Positions 1,976 to 11,695 of a stretch of DNA of 64,000 nucleotides are shown piece by piece. Made by a program: the position numbers and the translations under genes. Within the stretch, counting starts at the first letter, position 1, and each line of letters begins with the position of its first letter. The notes under the pieces were generated by a model. It was not told the DNA's origin and ran no database searches. It saw only the letters and a program-made list of their open reading frames with translations. The DNA comes from Rhodothermales bacterium. Lineage in GTDB: Bacteria; Bacteroidota; Rhodothermia; Rhodothermales; UBA10348. Location: assembly GCA_040221055.1 (NCBI GenBank), contig JAVJVN010000018.1, positions 1-64,000 on the forward strand, written 5' to 3'.

Positions 1976-4612
1976 TCAAGCCGTAGCGGTCACGCGGAGC
2001 ATTTCCTCGACGGTCGTCGCGCCCATTTTGACCAGTTCGCGCGCGCTGTCCTGCAGCGTCAGCATGCCCTCCTTGACGGCCAGCTGGCGGATCCGGTCTT
2101 CGTCAATGGCTTCCGCCGACTCGGCGATTTCCTGGCGGATTTCCCGCGAGAAGTACAACGTCTCACAAACGGCGCGCCGGCCTTTGTATCCGTTGCCTCC
2201 GCACTTCTGGCACTTGCCGCCATGCGCGGCCTGGTAGAAGGTGGTCCCGGCAATGTCGTCTTCCGTGAACCCGAGCGAGCGCAGCAGCACCAGATCGGGA
2301 TCATGGTCCACCTTGCGGCAATCGGAGCACACCTCGCGGATGAGCCGCTGCGCCACGACCAGATTGATGGCATACGCAATCAGGAAGGGCTCAATGCCCA
2401 TCTTGTAGAGCCGTGAAACGGCCGCGGGTGCATCGTTCGTATGAAGCGTTGAAAACGTAAGGTGACCGGTGTTGGCCAATTTGATCGCCAATTCGGCGGT
2501 CTGTCGGTCGCGCATCTCACCCACCATGACCACGTCCGGGTCGTGCCGGAGAATGGCGCGCAAAGCGCCTTCCAGGTCCAATTTGTGGCTGAGTTTGATC
2601 TGTCGCACGCCCTTGATGATGTACTCGACCGGGTCTTCCACGGTCAGTACGTTCACTTCCGGCGTCACCACCTGGTGCAGCGCGGCCACGAGCGTGGTCG
2701 ACTTGCCCGATCCCGTGGGACCCGTCAGGATGACCATGCCGTGCGGCTGCCGGATGGCCCGGTTGAAGCGCTCCAGGGCCACGTCCAGCATGCCCAGTTT
2801 GCGGATATCGGTCAGCACCTTCCGGTCATCCAGGATACGGATGACAATGCTCTCGGCGCGGATTTCCTGGTTTGCCGTGGCAATCGGCAGGATGGATACG
2901 CGGAACCGGATAAGCGCCCCGTCAATTTCGCGCTGGATGAACCCGTCCTGGGCCATGTCCCGCTCGAACCGGTCCACGTTCGTGGAATTGTCCTTGACGA
3001 CGGCCAGGAAGGCCTCCGGATGCACTTTCTCTTCGGTGTGCCACTTCTTGAGCCGTCCGTCCGTCCGGAAATGGATTTCGACGGCCCGGTTCTGATTCGG
3101 ATAGATGTGGATATCACTCGCATTGCGGCGAACCGATTCCATGAGCGCGGCCTCGAACAGGTTGATGAGCTTCGAGCGGCTCATTTCAGCCTCGAGGGCC
3201 TCCTCGTCGAGTACGTCCTCGGTCTCCTCGTAGGACATGCCCAGGTCAAACGCCTGCGTATCCTGCGTTATGCGCTCCAGATATTCGTTCTTGCGCGGAA
3301 ACAGCTCGTCCAGGAGGCGCACGATGTCGGTTTCGGGCGCATAGCGCAGCTCGAATCGACCCACATCCAGCGAATGCAACAGTTTGTTCACGTCCGGCCG
3401 CGTGGGGTCGGGGGTCACGAAGACCATGCGACCCGTGCCCGTGTCGAAATCCAGGGCATGCTCGAACGGCAGCAAAAGCATTTCGAGCATCTCCTCGCGA
3501 TGATGCTCGGCCAATGTCTCCATGGTCAAACGCACGAAATCGTGGTCGGGGCGCCCCGGTACCAGGGTTTCCTGCTTGAATGCGTACACGGCGGCGGCTT
3601 TGCCATACACCGTCGGGCGGTCCACGGACGGCAAGTCGGCCAACACGCGCCAGAGCGCATCGCGACCGGCCTCGGCCGCATGAATGGCGGCAGCTTCCGC
3701 AACCTGTTCCTCGGTCACCAGATTCTCGGCTACCAGGGCTTTCACCACGCGATCCTTGGACACGCGTTTCTGCACATCGGTCGCCGATACCGGCTTGATC
3801 TCGATCGGAGCCGCCGGCTCAGGCGCGATTTCCCCTTCCGGGGCGTCTTCTTCAATCCGGAAGTAGGCCCGGACATTCTCCAGGGCTTCGGCCAGTTCGG
3901 CTTCCGGGGTATATACACAGACCACTTCAAGGGGCGCGCCCAACAAGGCGGTCTGGGCTGCGGAAGAGGTCGGATCGGACGATGCCAGCAACAACCCGCC
4001 CTGCGCAATCTGGTCAATCGGCACGAGCCCCGCCTCGATCATGCGGACAATGTCTTCCCGCTGCAGGGCCTGTTGGATGCGGTCCATGAGCGTCACGGTC
4101 GGGCGTGCCCCGATGAACGACTCCAGTGCATAGCCCGCGTGAGCCGCAGCGGCTTCACGGATGCGCTCCGGATCGGTGCTTTCCAGCCTGCACAGGACCC
4201 GCCACAGGTCCTCCCCGTCCTCGCGCAGTCGCAGGGCATCGAATACCTGCGTGATGTTGACAATCTCTTCGCGGAGAAGGCTCAGCACGAGTTCATCCTT
4301 GATGACACCGGCCGCAGGCACGAGATCATTCTCCAAAGGAGCATCTGACGCCATGTGGGCCGTCACGGCTGCGTCCAACTCCCCGTCGCTGATCATTTCA
4401 TCGATCCGTCCGGAAATCTCCTCTTCGGCGAATCCGTAGATCTGATCGATGGAGTAGGATTCAGGTGCACGTCCCCCACCGGCCGCAGAACCGGTTTCGG
4501 GATCCTCGGCCAATGCAGCCGCCCACTCATCCGCGCTGAGCGTGGACAGCTCCGACAGGATGTCGTTCAGGAGCGTGTCGTCCTGGGGTGATATGTGATC
4601 CCTTTCCTTCAT
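1976..4612 (-). CDS. pilB: Type IV pilus assembly ATPase PilB/GspE, with enlarged N-terminus
   Basis: The secretion ATPase that powers pilin extraction and polymerisation at the inner membrane. The C-terminal half is a standard PilB/GspE motor: Walker A GPTGSGKST at residues 631-639, Walker B region around 694-702 (V-V-M-V-G-E-M-R-D), and a CxxC...CxxC zinc site (C762, C765, C801, C804). At 878 residues it is about 300 longer than usual. The extra N-terminal part holds two GspE_N-like modules, recognisable from the matching L-W-R-V-L blocks at 136-140 and 320-324. The R-L-G-x-x-L motif of c-di-GMP-binding MshEN domains is not seen. It lies four bases after pilC in an operon with two pilins. 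Confidence 0.92.
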   Translation of the reverse strand: MKERDHISPQDDTLLNDILSELSTLSADEWAAALAEDPETGSAAGGGRAPESYSIDQIYGFAEEEISGRIDEMISDGELDAAVTAHMASDAPLENDLVPAAGVIKDELVLSLLREEIVNITQVFDALRLREDGEDLWRVLCRLESTDPERIREAAAAHAGYALESFIGARPTVTLMDRIQQALQREDIVRMIEAGLVPIDQIAQGGLLLASSDPTSSAAQTALLGAPLEVVCVYTPEAELAEALENVRAYFRIEEDAPEGEIAPEPAAPIEIKPVSATDVQKRVSKDRVVKALVAENLVTEEQVAEAAAIHAAEAGRDALWRVLADLPSVDRPTVYGKAAAVYAFKQETLVPGRPDHDFVRLTMETLAEHHREEMLEMLLLPFEHALDFDTGTGRMVFVTPDPTRPDVNKLLHSLDVGRFELRYAPETDIVRLLDELFPRKNEYLERITQDTQAFDLGMSYEETEDVLDEEALEAEMSRSKLINLFEAALMESVRRNASDIHIYPNQNRAVEIHFRTDGRLKKWHTEEKVHPEAFLAVVKDNSTNVDRFERDMAQDGFIQREIDGALIRFRVSILPIATANQEIRAESIVIRILDDRKVLTDIRKLGMLDVALERFNRAIRQPHGMVILTGPTGSGKSTTLVAALHQVVTPEVNVLTVEDPVEYIIKGVRQIKLSHKLDLEGALRAILRHDPDVVMVGEMRDRQTAELAIKLANTGHLTFSTLHTNDAPAAVSRLYKMGIEPFLIAYAINLVVAQRLIREVCSDCRKVDHDPDLVLLRSLGFTEDDIAGTTFYQAAHGGKCQKCGGNGYKGRRAVCETLYFSREIRQEIAESAEAIDEDRIRQLAVKEGMLTLQDSARELVKMGATTVEEMLRVTATA

Positions 4613-4616
4613 GGGG

Positions 4617-5969
4617 TTACTTCATCATATCGGTACTAGATGGCTGAACCAAAGCGAGTTCCGAAGAAAGTACCGTGAGGACCAGGATGGCGACCGTGAT
4701 GATCATGGCCACGACCGTCTGGATCATCTCCACCGTGGACTTCAGCTTGAGCCCGGTTTCGTTCTCATAGTAGTCCGCCATCTGGCGGGCCGCCGCCCGG
4801 ACGTTGCCGGTTTCCGATCCACTCCGGAAGCGTGCCAGGGACATCGACGTAAACACGCCCGACGCTTCCATGGCCTTCACCAGGTCGGCCCCCTGGGCCA
4901 CCATGAGCGGAATGGTAATGGTTTTTATCCGGTGTTCCATGTACTTGTTGCCCGATGCCTCCGCGGCAATGCGGATGACGGAAATGTTCTCGCCCGAGCC
5001 GGAATAGAGCACGGCAAACACGCGGCAGAAGATCTCGATGTTCAACTTGTGCAGCAGCGACCCGATGACCGGAATCCGGATCATGTACTGATGGATGAGG
5101 AAGCCCCCCCGCTGCGACTTCGCGAAGGCCACTATCCCGACAACGACGCTCACAAACGACCCGATGACCCACATCCAGTTGGCATCCATCCACGCGGAGA
5201 ATTCCAGTGTGGCGGTGGTCATGGGGGGAAGATCAATACCGAATCCGGCGAACAGACCGGCCGTCTCCGGGAAAATGTACCAGATGTACCACACGAACGC
5301 GGCAATCAATACGACCATCGTAATGGCCGGCGTCACCATGGCGCTCTTCGTGCTCTTCTTGAACTCGTTCTGACGCTCCAGGAACCGGGCCGTGGCTTCG
5401 TAGATCTCGGACATGTTGCCCGTCTGCGAGGCAATGCCCAGCATGTAGGCCGTAAACTTGCCCAGCATGTGCTGCTGCTTCATGAACGCCTGCTGGGCTT
5501 CCATGCCTCCCTTCAGGTCGCCGTTCAAGTCGCGGATGACCTGCTTCAGGCTGTTCGACGACACGTCGTTCACCAGCAGGTTCAGGATTTCGTCGAAGGG
5601 CAGCTTCTCCTTCAGCAGGTTCGCCGAGAGGCGTACGAACATGATGAGGTCCTGCTGCGGGGGCTTGCGCTGGAAGTCGAACCATTTCTTCTGGATCTTC
5701 AGGACCTCCAGGCCCATCTTTTCCAGTGCCGACCGTAATTCATCCTCGGAAAAGGACTTCTGCTCACCGTTTATGAGCTTTCCGTTGGGATGACGCACCC
5801 TGTAGATGTACGTCTGCCGCTGCGCAATGTCCTGCGGCCGGAATCCGTGCCGTTCGCCCAGCGAATCCACCCGTTTGCGGGCGGCCTTCTCGCTCGAGGC
5901 GAATACCGTTCCCTGGACCGGTTGACCGGTGCCGTTTATCCCGTTGAATCTGAATTCCTTTACAGCCAT
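4617..5969 (-). CDS. pilC: Type IV pilus inner-membrane platform protein PilC/GspF
   Basis: The polytopic platform protein that couples the PilB motor to pilin assembly. The 450-residue protein has two cytoplasmic T2SSF domains; the second carries the conserved G-S-E-T-G-N. Three hydrophobic segments are visible, near residues 217-240, about 80 residues further on, and at the C-terminus. The family's short N-terminal module (aromatic, then G-x-x-V-x-G, then an alanine/leucine helix) occurs twice in tandem, at about 5-48 and 54-93, a duplication parallel to that in PilB. It sits between pilin and pilB with gaps of eight and four bases, so it is surely co-transcribed with both. Confidence 0.92.
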   Translation of the reverse strand: MAVKEFRFNGINGTGQPVQGTVFASSEKAARKRVDSLGERHGFRPQDIAQRQTYIYRVRHPNGKLINGEQKSFSEDELRSALEKMGLEVLKIQKKWFDFQRKPPQQDLIMFVRLSANLLKEKLPFDEILNLLVNDVSSNSLKQVIRDLNGDLKGGMEAQQAFMKQQHMLGKFTAYMLGIASQTGNMSEIYEATARFLERQNEFKKSTKSAMVTPAITMVVLIAAFVWYIWYIFPETAGLFAGFGIDLPPMTTATLEFSAWMDANWMWVIGSFVSVVVGIVAFAKSQRGGFLIHQYMIRIPVIGSLLHKLNIEIFCRVFAVLYSGSGENISVIRIAAEASGNKYMEHRIKTITIPLMVAQGADLVKAMEASGVFTSMSLARFRSGSETGNVRAAARQMADYYENETGLKLKSTVEMIQTVVAMIITVAILVLTVLSSELALVQPSSTDMMK

Positions 5970-5977
5970 GTACGTGG

Positions 5978-6400
5978 TCAGTCCTCCTCTCCGTCCAGTG
6001 TGATCCCGCCCGTGAAGCTGACGTCGGTCTGATTGATGGCGTGACCAGACACAAAGGTCCGCGCGCCGATATTCGGGTCGCGCTTGCTTACCCCGGTGAT
6101 TTCAACGGTCGATGCGGTGGCCGCCGTAATGGCAAACGTGCCGTAATTGGTTTCCACATTCATGCTGAGCTTCTCCATGCCATCCTCCGCCAGACCGGCA
6201 TACGATGCGTTGCCTCCATTGAAGGGATCCAGCTTGGTCTTCCAGAAGACCGCCGAGTTGGCGATCTCGAGGTTCCGGTTCACCAGGTTGTCGGCAATCA
6301 CCTTGGCGCTCTGGTCTTCCCAGGCATACATGCCGGCGATGATCGCAACGCCGACAATGATGATGCCGAGGACCAGCAGGAGCAGTTGTTGTTGACCCAT
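5978..6400 (-). CDS. Short type IV pilin-like protein (MGQQQ family), second copy
   Basis: A 140-residue single-pass protein. It starts MGQQQLLLLVLGI, followed by more hydrophobic residues to about position 27, then an extracytoplasmic part of small and polar residues with few cysteines or aromatics. The architecture, size and placement next to pilC and pilB suggest a pilin. It lacks the usual basic leader and the Glu at mature position 5; if a prepilin peptidase acts, cleavage would be after Gly2, leaving QQQ at the mature N-terminus. It shares its first 13 residues with the pilin at 6614-7039 except for one conservative change further in, but the rest has diverged strongly. Assignment as a pilin is by inference. 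Confidence 0.75.
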   Translation of the reverse strand: MGQQQLLLLVLGIIIVGVAIIAGMYAWEDQSAKVIADNLVNRNLEIANSAVFWKTKLDPFNGGNASYAGLAEDGMEKLSMNVETNYGTFAITAATASTVEITGVSKRDPNIGARTFVSGHAINQTDVSFTGGITLDGEED

Positions 6401-6469
6401 GATGAATCAGGATTGGGAATGAAGGTCATTGAACGTATCGGCCTGTCACGGAATGACTTAATCCGGGCT

Positions 6470-6484
6470 GTATCTTTTTGATAC
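6470..6484. promoter_or_regulatory. Inverted repeat GTATC-N5-GATAC upstream of the second pilin
   Basis: Perfect five-base arms around a run of five T (plus strand) lie 70 bases upstream of the pilin that starts at 6400, in the 213-base gap between the two pilin genes. It may be an operator or part of a promoter; no convincing -35/-10 pair was found with it. Confidence 0.3.
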
Positions 6485-6540
6485 GAAGTCGTCCGCCTCC
6501 CCTCTGGTCCCGGCATGACCGGCACCCTCCGATTGCCCCA

Positions 6541-6578
6541 AAAGAAAAAAGGGGCGGCGCTTTCGCGCCGCCCCTTTT
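6541..6578 (-). terminator. Rho-independent terminator after the first pilin gene
   Basis: On the minus strand a perfect 10-bp stem GGGGCGGCGC/GCGCCGCCCC (6551-6560 with 6565-6574) closes a GAAA tetraloop and is followed by TTTTTTCTTT. It lies 36 bases past the stop of the pilin gene at 6614-7039 and before the second pilin, so it should end or reduce transcription between the two. This is one of only two clear intrinsic terminators in the window. Confidence 0.92.
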
Positions 6579-6613
6579 CCCAAGGCTTACGGGCCTGTAT
6601 TCAAGTTGGCTTA

Positions 6614-7039
6614 TTATGAAGCCACGTAGTTCGATACCGTTGTCGTGATGTCGCCCGGTGCCGTACCGTCTACCGCGACTACCACCTGATTCGCCTGTTC
6701 CGTGTTGATGGCCGTGATGGTCAATACGCCGGCGGCTTCGGTCATGGTGATCGTGCCATTCAAGTTGACATAAGCGCCGTCACCGTTCACGGTATATCCA
6801 AGCTTGGGAAGCGTCAGGCCGTCCCACATGTCAGCGGCTGCGTTGCCGGCACCACCACCGAAGGCGGTCGGCTTCAGGCGCCAGGCCTGTGCATCGGAGG
6901 CAATCCGGATGGCGTCATTGACGAGCGCATCGGAGTTGGCCTTTTTCATGTTTTCGGAGAATGCCTGGATTCCAACGACGACGGCCAGGCCGACGATCAC
7001 GATTCCAAGGACGAGGAGAAGAAGTTGCTGCTGACCCAT
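6614..7039 (-). CDS. Short type IV pilin-like protein (MGQQQ family), first and probably major copy
   Basis: A 141-residue protein beginning MGQQQLLLLVLGI and continuing hydrophobic to about residue 26, then a small extracytoplasmic domain rich in Ala, Gly, Thr, Val and Asn. Helical spine plus short beta-rich tail fits a pilin subunit. There is no basic leader before the hydrophobic stretch and no Glu5; Gly2 followed by Gln resembles a prepilin peptidase site with a two-residue leader. GAGG stands seven bases before the ATG. A strong terminator follows directly, so this copy can be made in excess over the pilin-pilC-pilB genes behind it, as expected for a major pilin. The role is inferred from context. 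Confidence 0.75.
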   Translation of the reverse strand: MGQQQLLLLVLGIVIVGLAVVVGIQAFSENMKKANSDALVNDAIRIASDAQAWRLKPTAFGGGAGNAAADMWDGLTLPKLGYTVNGDGAYVNLNGTITMTEAAGVLTITAINTEQANQVVVAVDGTAPGDITTTVSNYVAS

Positions 7040-7145
7040 TGTAGTACCTCAAGGATGGTCTGTTGCTTTTTCTGAACGCCGGTTTGACGTTGTGTTTCAC
7101 GTCTCGTATCGGCGTCCCCGGGTAGGCCTTAAGAAATTCGTTTGT

Positions 7146-11111: not shown

Positions 11112-11695
11112 CAGTTGGCCACCACTACTTTCGCGTGGCGCAGGACACGGTCACCCATGCGGTATCCGGTCTGGACAACCGCCAGGACGGTGCCTTCCTC
11201 CACGCCGTCCGGAGCCGGTTGCTGCATGAGTGCCTCGTGCATGTCCTCGTCGAAGGCCTCGCCTTCCGCCTCAATGGCTTCCACGCCGAGCTTGGAGAGT
11301 TCATCCATCAACTTCTGGTACACCAGTTCAACACCGCTCTTCAGTGAACGATACGCCGGTGAAAGCTCGGTATCGGTCTCCGCCTCCGCCTTGTCCGTGG
11401 CTTCAAGCGATCGCTGGAAGTCATCCACGATGTCCAGCAATTGGCCGACCACCAGGCTCTTGCCGAACGTGACCATCTGCGCCTTCTCCTGCTCCGTCCG
11501 ACGGCGGTAGTTCTGGAACTCGGCGGCCGTGCGTTTCCACTGGTCGTTCGCAGCCTCCAGCTCGGTTTTCAACTCATCGATCTCCTTGGCGCGGTCGGCC
11601 AGTTCATCGATGGCTTGGAGGACCATGTCCGCGTCCTGCTCGCCGGCTGCGGGCGTGTTTTCCGCGGAATCATTCACGGATGGATTCTGTGTCAT
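11111..11695 (-). CDS. grpE: Nucleotide exchange factor GrpE
   Basis: The exchange factor that releases ADP from DnaK. The 194-residue protein has an acidic, unstructured N-terminus, a long coiled coil ([16 protein letters not shown]), the conserved [11 protein letters not shown] segment and a C-terminal beta domain ending G-Y[14 protein letters not shown]. It lies between hrcA (65 bases upstream) and dnaJ (one-base overlap). Confidence 0.97.

Follow-up and report, generated by a model that had tools for sequence, protein, structure and literature searches.

The proteins encoded by pilA1 and pilA2 are very probably type IVa-like pilus subunits made at, or within three residues of, the mature N-terminus, and most of the bacteria that carry such pilins lack a prepilin peptidase. 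On a wider scale, comparison of genomes suggests that a branch of type IV pili in Rhodothermales, Balneolales, Ignavibacteria and KSB1 has probably abandoned both the prepilin leader and its peptidase, with pilins that would be born mature. This putative leaderless pilin class is very likely genuine as a matter of genomics.

Pilin genes and predicted fold

The window, which is the whole stretch of 64,000 nucleotides analysed here, carries both pilin genes on the minus strand. The pilA1 gene for a putative leaderless pilin (6614..7039, 141 amino acids, ATG start) begins with MGQQQLLLLVLGIVIVGLAVVVGIQAF and is followed by pilA2 for a second putative leaderless paralogue (5978..6400, 140 amino acids, ATG start). 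Directly downstream on the same strand are a pilC-like gene for the inner-membrane platform (4617..5969, 450 amino acids, two T2SSF domains, E 3.6e-28) and a pilB-like gene for the assembly ATPase (1976..4612, 878 amino acids, T2SSE E 8.6e-99, MshEN E 6.4e-07). Both open reading frames, which the initial annotation had reported at these positions with a shared start, are real, and their translations have the N-terminus MGQQQLLLLVLGI in common. In an alignment of 59 homologue rows, M1-G2-Q3-Q4-Q5-L6-L7-L8 is invariant, which is partly an effect of ascertainment because MGQQQLLL itself was the seed of the search that supplied most rows. When we scanned this genome for starts with MGQQ, six places were found versus eight for the reversed pattern, and none besides pilA1 and pilA2 was pilin-coding.

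An intrinsic-terminator-like hairpin lies between pilA1 and pilA2 on the minus strand (6544..6581, RNA fold -34.2 kcal/mol, z -5.6) and is absent from the listing of a consensus terminator scan. This is the layout expected if pilA1 is the most expressed gene, and pilA1, the most conserved paralogue with a putative terminator of its own, is most likely the major subunit. Some relatives contain near-identical tandem copies of pilA1 (L015:351-794 and 1501-1944; L055:9947-10396 and 11151-11600), perhaps for dosage or sequence variation.

Single-sequence searches of Pfam, NCBIfam and PDB gave no significant match for the pilins. The structure prediction proposed in the initial annotation was then carried out with AlphaFold2 using alignments of relatives. 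The pilA1 model (pLDDT 94.2, pTM 0.80) shows a helix at residues 3-55 and four strands, and the pilA2 model (pLDDT 90.0) shows a helix at residues 2-57 and four strands. Both models thus have the predicted architecture of type IV pilins, a long N-terminal helix of about 53 residues followed by a sheet. Foldseek found no PDB match under E 0.001 for either model. With VIA-align, rows 1-18 for pilA1 contained nothing but type IV pilins or pseudopilins, with a best Z of 8.9 and unrelated proteins from Z 4.4, and the same was true of rows 1-17 for pilA2, with a best Z of 10.1 and unrelated proteins from Z 4.8. The similarity to PilE, PilX, PilV, PilA4 and PAK pilin is moderate, at Z 8-10. When PDB sequences were searched with a profile, most matches were type IV pilins (Geobacter, Thermus, Streptococcus and Neisseria), though with E-values above 0.2.

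When we compared the PDB matches with mature numbering, the register was constant, with position 9 placed on residue 6, and the second pilin family placed position 7 on residue 4. In this register, the open reading frame begins three residues ahead of the usual mature N-terminus and Leu8 occupies the place of Glu5, which is almost invariable in bacterial type IV pilins. The absence of Glu5 claimed in the initial annotation is upheld, and in the window translations the first 25 residues of each pilin are all non-acidic. Glu5 pilin mutants of other bacteria form no homopolymers (PMC4471445), which counts against a model of pilins without Glu5. The VIA-align results, the predicted architecture and the linkage to pilC and pilB support the assignment of both proteins to the type IV pilins.

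Pilus machine and distribution

The pilin genes are in linkage with those for a traffic ATPase and for a polytopic platform protein, and the pilin role that had been deduced from this linkage agrees with the predicted fold and with the presence of PilC/T2SSF in 136 of 137 pilin-bearing genomes of the phylum. In profile searches of the whole genome, T2SSF and the secretin were each found once and T2SSE was clear in three genes. In Balneolales, KSB1 and Ignavibacteria, one operon contains the pilins, PilC, PilB, a PilT-like ATPase, PilM/N/O-like genes and the secretin. The operon is split in many Rhodothermales, and the second half in this genome is located on contig C2 (locus L028). Here we found a PilT-family ATPase (L028:11902-13272; TIGR01420 E 2.9e-90, 302.9 bits, slightly below the cut-off of 319.1) and a PilQ-like secretin (L028:7763-9118; Secretin E 3.3e-27, with PilQ as the best NCBIfam model, below its cut-off), so that the PilT-type ATPase and PilQ secretin of a type IVa machine are both present. 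The locus further encodes a 585-amino acid protein and a PilO-like protein. These two genes stand where parts of a PilM-PilN-PilO-PilP alignment complex would be expected, and their matches are weak ones to PilN (E 0.016, the 585-amino acid protein) and T2SSM_b (E 0.058). To judge from this gene content, pilins that require no removal of a leader appear to serve a pilus machine that is complete and includes PilT. Another PilB-like ATPase, shorter at 613 amino acids (L029:9454-11295, contig C12), is encoded at a distance from all pilin and pilC genes.

In leaderless loci, PilC has a median length of 449.5 amino acids compared with about 375 for the classical T2SSF of the phylum, a difference of about 75 residues. 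In the window PilC, the first T2SSF domain begins at residue 111, and the extra sequence ahead of it resembles a second copy of the N-terminal cytoplasmic region. In the PilC tree, a 100/100 branch sets the PilC of leaderless loci, as a single group, apart from the classical T2SSF of the phylum. This indicates separation and not a date of origin because the branches are long and there are no other outgroups.

A type II secretion-like or DNA-uptake pseudopilus, instead of a surface pilus, is an unlikely reading of these genes. Type IV pili and type II secretion systems are poorly separable by sequence, the window PilC-like protein scores best against GspF, and the best NCBIfam model of the window PilB, TIGR02538 type_IV_pilB, is under its cut-off with GspE scoring almost equally. 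However, it is the PilB model that is best for this ATPase, and the PilT-family ATPase together with a secretin closest to PilQ, which share an operon with the pilin genes in related genomes, argue for a pilus. The Tad/Flp pilus, with its TadB/TadC single-domain pair and TadV, was considered and rejected, since a single two-domain T2SSF gene and no A24 peptidase were found.

The same machine may include minor pilins. On contig C2, directly upstream of pilT, a minus-strand gene (L028:13376-15001) encodes a leaderless candidate minor pilin of 541 amino acids, starting MGKGAIILVASMLITL / MGKGAIILVASMLITLTSMYAVEKE, which has no Pfam match and resembles a minor pilin of the PilX/GspK type or a tip adhesin. 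A gene for a subtilase-like lipoprotein with about five tandem copies of VLDRYK lies 5' of it (L028:15229-16614, minus strand). In Salinivenus, Roseithermus, Fodinibius and other relatives, a leaderless trio with an N-terminal hydrophobic helix is located between pilB and pilT (L056:15044-17942, L059:13995-17002, L062:14213-16810, L071:16174-18572 and L108:13758-15960). The trio resembles the minor pilins PilV/GspI, PilW/GspJ and PilX/GspK in order and N-terminal character, and these proteins are likely minor pilins of the three classes. No alternative upstream start was present in 18 of 19 minor-pilin-like genes examined, and a Pfam search of the minor-pilin-like proteins gave no match.

To describe the distribution, we surveyed 392 genomes of the phylum, each at least 90% complete. 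Leaderless pilins were found in 137 of them, representing 76 of 178 sampled genera; 136 of the 137 also had T2SSF, and 209 of the 392 genomes had neither pilin nor T2SSF (p about 3e-63 for these counts). Among 60 relatives, 48 contained pilin homologues. The search for relatives starting with MGQQQLLL that the initial annotation had suggested yielded 462 places in the public genome collection that encode a pilin relative; these loci were found via the motif itself, and its perfect conservation there is not independent evidence. With homologues this widespread, the pair in the window is no chance occurrence. Homologues standing apart from pilus genes, which the annotation had named as the observation that would speak against it, are not the pattern we found: pilC was near the pilin in 63 of 80 loci, and many of the remaining loci are contig ends. 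The initial annotation had also proposed a poorly described pilin class of Bacteroidota. The first part of this proposal agrees with our literature search, and the restriction to one phylum does not hold, as the class extends beyond Bacteroidota to KSB1 loci. One leaderless pilin (L113, JAHISB010000030.1) occurs in a record titled Patescibacteria, through either a binning error or transfer.

Prepilin peptidase and leader

The source genome (3.32 Mb, 99.5% complete) contained no Peptidase_A24 (PF01478) in a Pfam search that was positive in 12 of 14 control genomes. An archaeal-type class III signal with an archaeal peptidase was rejected on the same basis, as PF01478 finds none here and was positive in all four archaeal controls. 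Since the peptidase of the classical system in some families is barely or never matched by PF01478, a divergent-A24 profile was built from five Bacteroidota peptidases of two families and searched in 37 genomes. It matched 13 of 13 tested genomes of those two families (E 1e-11 to 1e-69), five of which had built the profile, and gave no match in this genome. In 19 other pilin genomes, only chance-level matches were obtained, none better than E 0.007 and located in short or interrupted frames. The idea of a hidden divergent A24 peptidase was rejected, the profile having given nothing credible in pilin genomes. The profile is narrow, as it missed both the ordinary A24 of one genome (G118), which PF01478 finds, and the A24 of a third family (f22), and it complements the PF01478 search. 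At the sensitivity used, these searches show that an A24 prepilin peptidase is absent from this genome.

In the phylum sample (n=392), A24 was present in 15 of the 137 pilin-bearing genomes and lacking in 122; these counts cover the sampled genomes of the phylum only. On statistical grounds, the pilin-bearing genomes of the phylum are thus shown to be mostly without A24. Each of the 15 exceptions has a further T2SSF that belongs to the short classical kind, and in 12 of them it shares a contig with the peptidase. Among the matches listed, such an extra T2SSF occurred in 3 of the 122 genomes lacking A24 (Fisher 2e-17 versus 15/15). Similarly, A24 was found in 5 of 60 relatives, all five among those with an additional, better-scoring T2SSF, which was on the same contig in four. 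The extra T2SSF in all 15 exceptions indicates that the A24 peptidase, where present, goes with another system.

It is improbable that an unrecognised peptidase of an unrelated family trims or modifies the pilin N-terminus. Such processing would be invisible to A24 profiles, but there is almost nothing to remove from the pilin, and no hydrophobic open reading frame with a GxGD motif was found in 80 leaderless loci, in the window or in the two other pilus loci of the genome.

The initial annotation had compared Gly2 and the following Gln with archaeal class III signals and taken the leader, if processed, to be two residues long. In such a model, a prepilin peptidase would cleave behind Gly2 and expose Gln3. 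Gly is the canonical -1 residue of prepilin leaders, Gly2 is invariant, and an A24 peptidase does occur in 15 of the 137 pilin-bearing genomes. However, the preference of methionine aminopeptidase explains Gly2 equally well, and the peptidase is absent here by both the Pfam and the divergent profile, is missing from most pilin genomes, and accompanies a second classical system where it occurs. Moreover, canonical prepilin leaders have 6-26 residues (PMC4471445), and in place of a hydrophilic leader of this length ending in Gly, Met alone precedes Gly2. We thus set this part of the initial annotation aside as carrying a very small chance of being correct.

The start sites point in the same direction. 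In-frame stop codons are located three and two codons 5' of the ATGs of the two window pilin genes, and a Shine-Dalgarno-like GAGG (7047..7050, minus strand), seven bases 5' of the pilA1 ATG, supports initiation at MGQQQ. In a set of 135 distinct homologous genes, an alternative upstream in-frame ATG, GTG or TTG is missing from 130, the median distance to an upstream in-frame stop is four codons, and 59% carry a Shine-Dalgarno-like motif 5' of the proposed ATG versus 11% at random positions. The upstream stops, the lack of alternative starts and the Shine-Dalgarno-like motifs together mean that a prepilin leader of canonical length is not encodable here, and the pilin genes as read here are therefore shown to encode no leader. 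A misplaced start codon with a normal leader encoded further upstream, for which five of the 135 homologues offer an alternative in-frame start, has a practically negligible probability given the other 130 and the motifs at the proposed ATG, and the stop codons rule it out for both window genes.

Proposed assembly and comparison with known systems

Methionine aminopeptidase prefers Gly at residue 2. Based on this preference, we suggest that Met1 would be removed by this enzyme after deformylation, leaving Gly-Gln-Gln-Gln, so that a housekeeping enzyme would do the only trimming. The uninterrupted hydrophobic helix may then insert N-in/C-out via SRP/Sec, with little positive-inside help because the pilin N-terminus has no Lys or Arg, and the inserted subunit would at once be ready for PilB and PilC. 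From homology, subunits would be polymerised by PilB and PilC and leave through the PilQ-like secretin, and PilT could retract the fibre. The fibre-core contacts that residue 1 and Glu5 make in classical pili may here fall to the invariant Gln triplet. The fibre might be primed or capped by the leaderless PilX/GspK-like protein in this genome and by the minor-pilin-like trio in relatives.

If this is true, building a type IV filament does not inherently require PilD to remove a leader and N-methylate the pilin, and the class would be a widespread natural exception to a supposedly universal leader and peptidase. The purpose of leader cleavage would become testable, given a pilus machine kept without cleavage. 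In addition, genomes with pilB/C/T/Q reported but pilA or pilD missing would be accounted for, and pilin finders based on the leader and Glu5 would overlook pili throughout a large environmental group of bacteria.

In reviews, the class III signal peptide and a dedicated peptidase are universal parts of type IV filaments (PMC4471445), and Nanoarchaeota is the group noted as peptidase-less. MSH loci have no prepilin peptidase gene of their own, but one that belongs to a different system is present in the same genomes (PMC6668835). A literature search, with subscription papers and preprints outside its scope, found no earlier account of MGQQQLLL or leaderless pilins or of peptidase-less pilus systems. 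In the 2013 genome paper on Melioribacter roseus, pilT, pilQ, pilB and pilC were reported and pilA and pilD were deemed missing (PMC3534657). We found leaderless pilins in an operon of the PilT/Q/B/C type in another Melioribacteraceae genome (L096, not M. roseus itself), and such pilins would supply the missing pilA of Melioribacter and explain its missing pilD.

The system resembles type IVa pili in its PilB, PilC, PilT-family ATPase, PilQ-like secretin and candidate PilN/O-like proteins, and its pilins resemble type IVa pilins in their predicted long N-terminal helix and four-stranded sheet. It differs from them in that the pilins have neither leader nor Glu5, most genomes have no PilD, and PilC exceeds the phylum's classical T2SSF by about 75 amino acids. 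The so-called T2SS of Cytophaga hutchinsonii (CHU_3191-3201) shares the broad phylum and the core of T2SSE, T2SSF and secretin. However, its locus includes the Peptidase_A24 gene CHU_3197 (PMC5553014), and the T2SSF of related classical systems forms a distinct, shorter clade. Finally, Glu5 is often absent from archaeal type IV pili and archaella too (PMC4471445), but these filaments keep both the leader and an archaeal prepilin peptidase.
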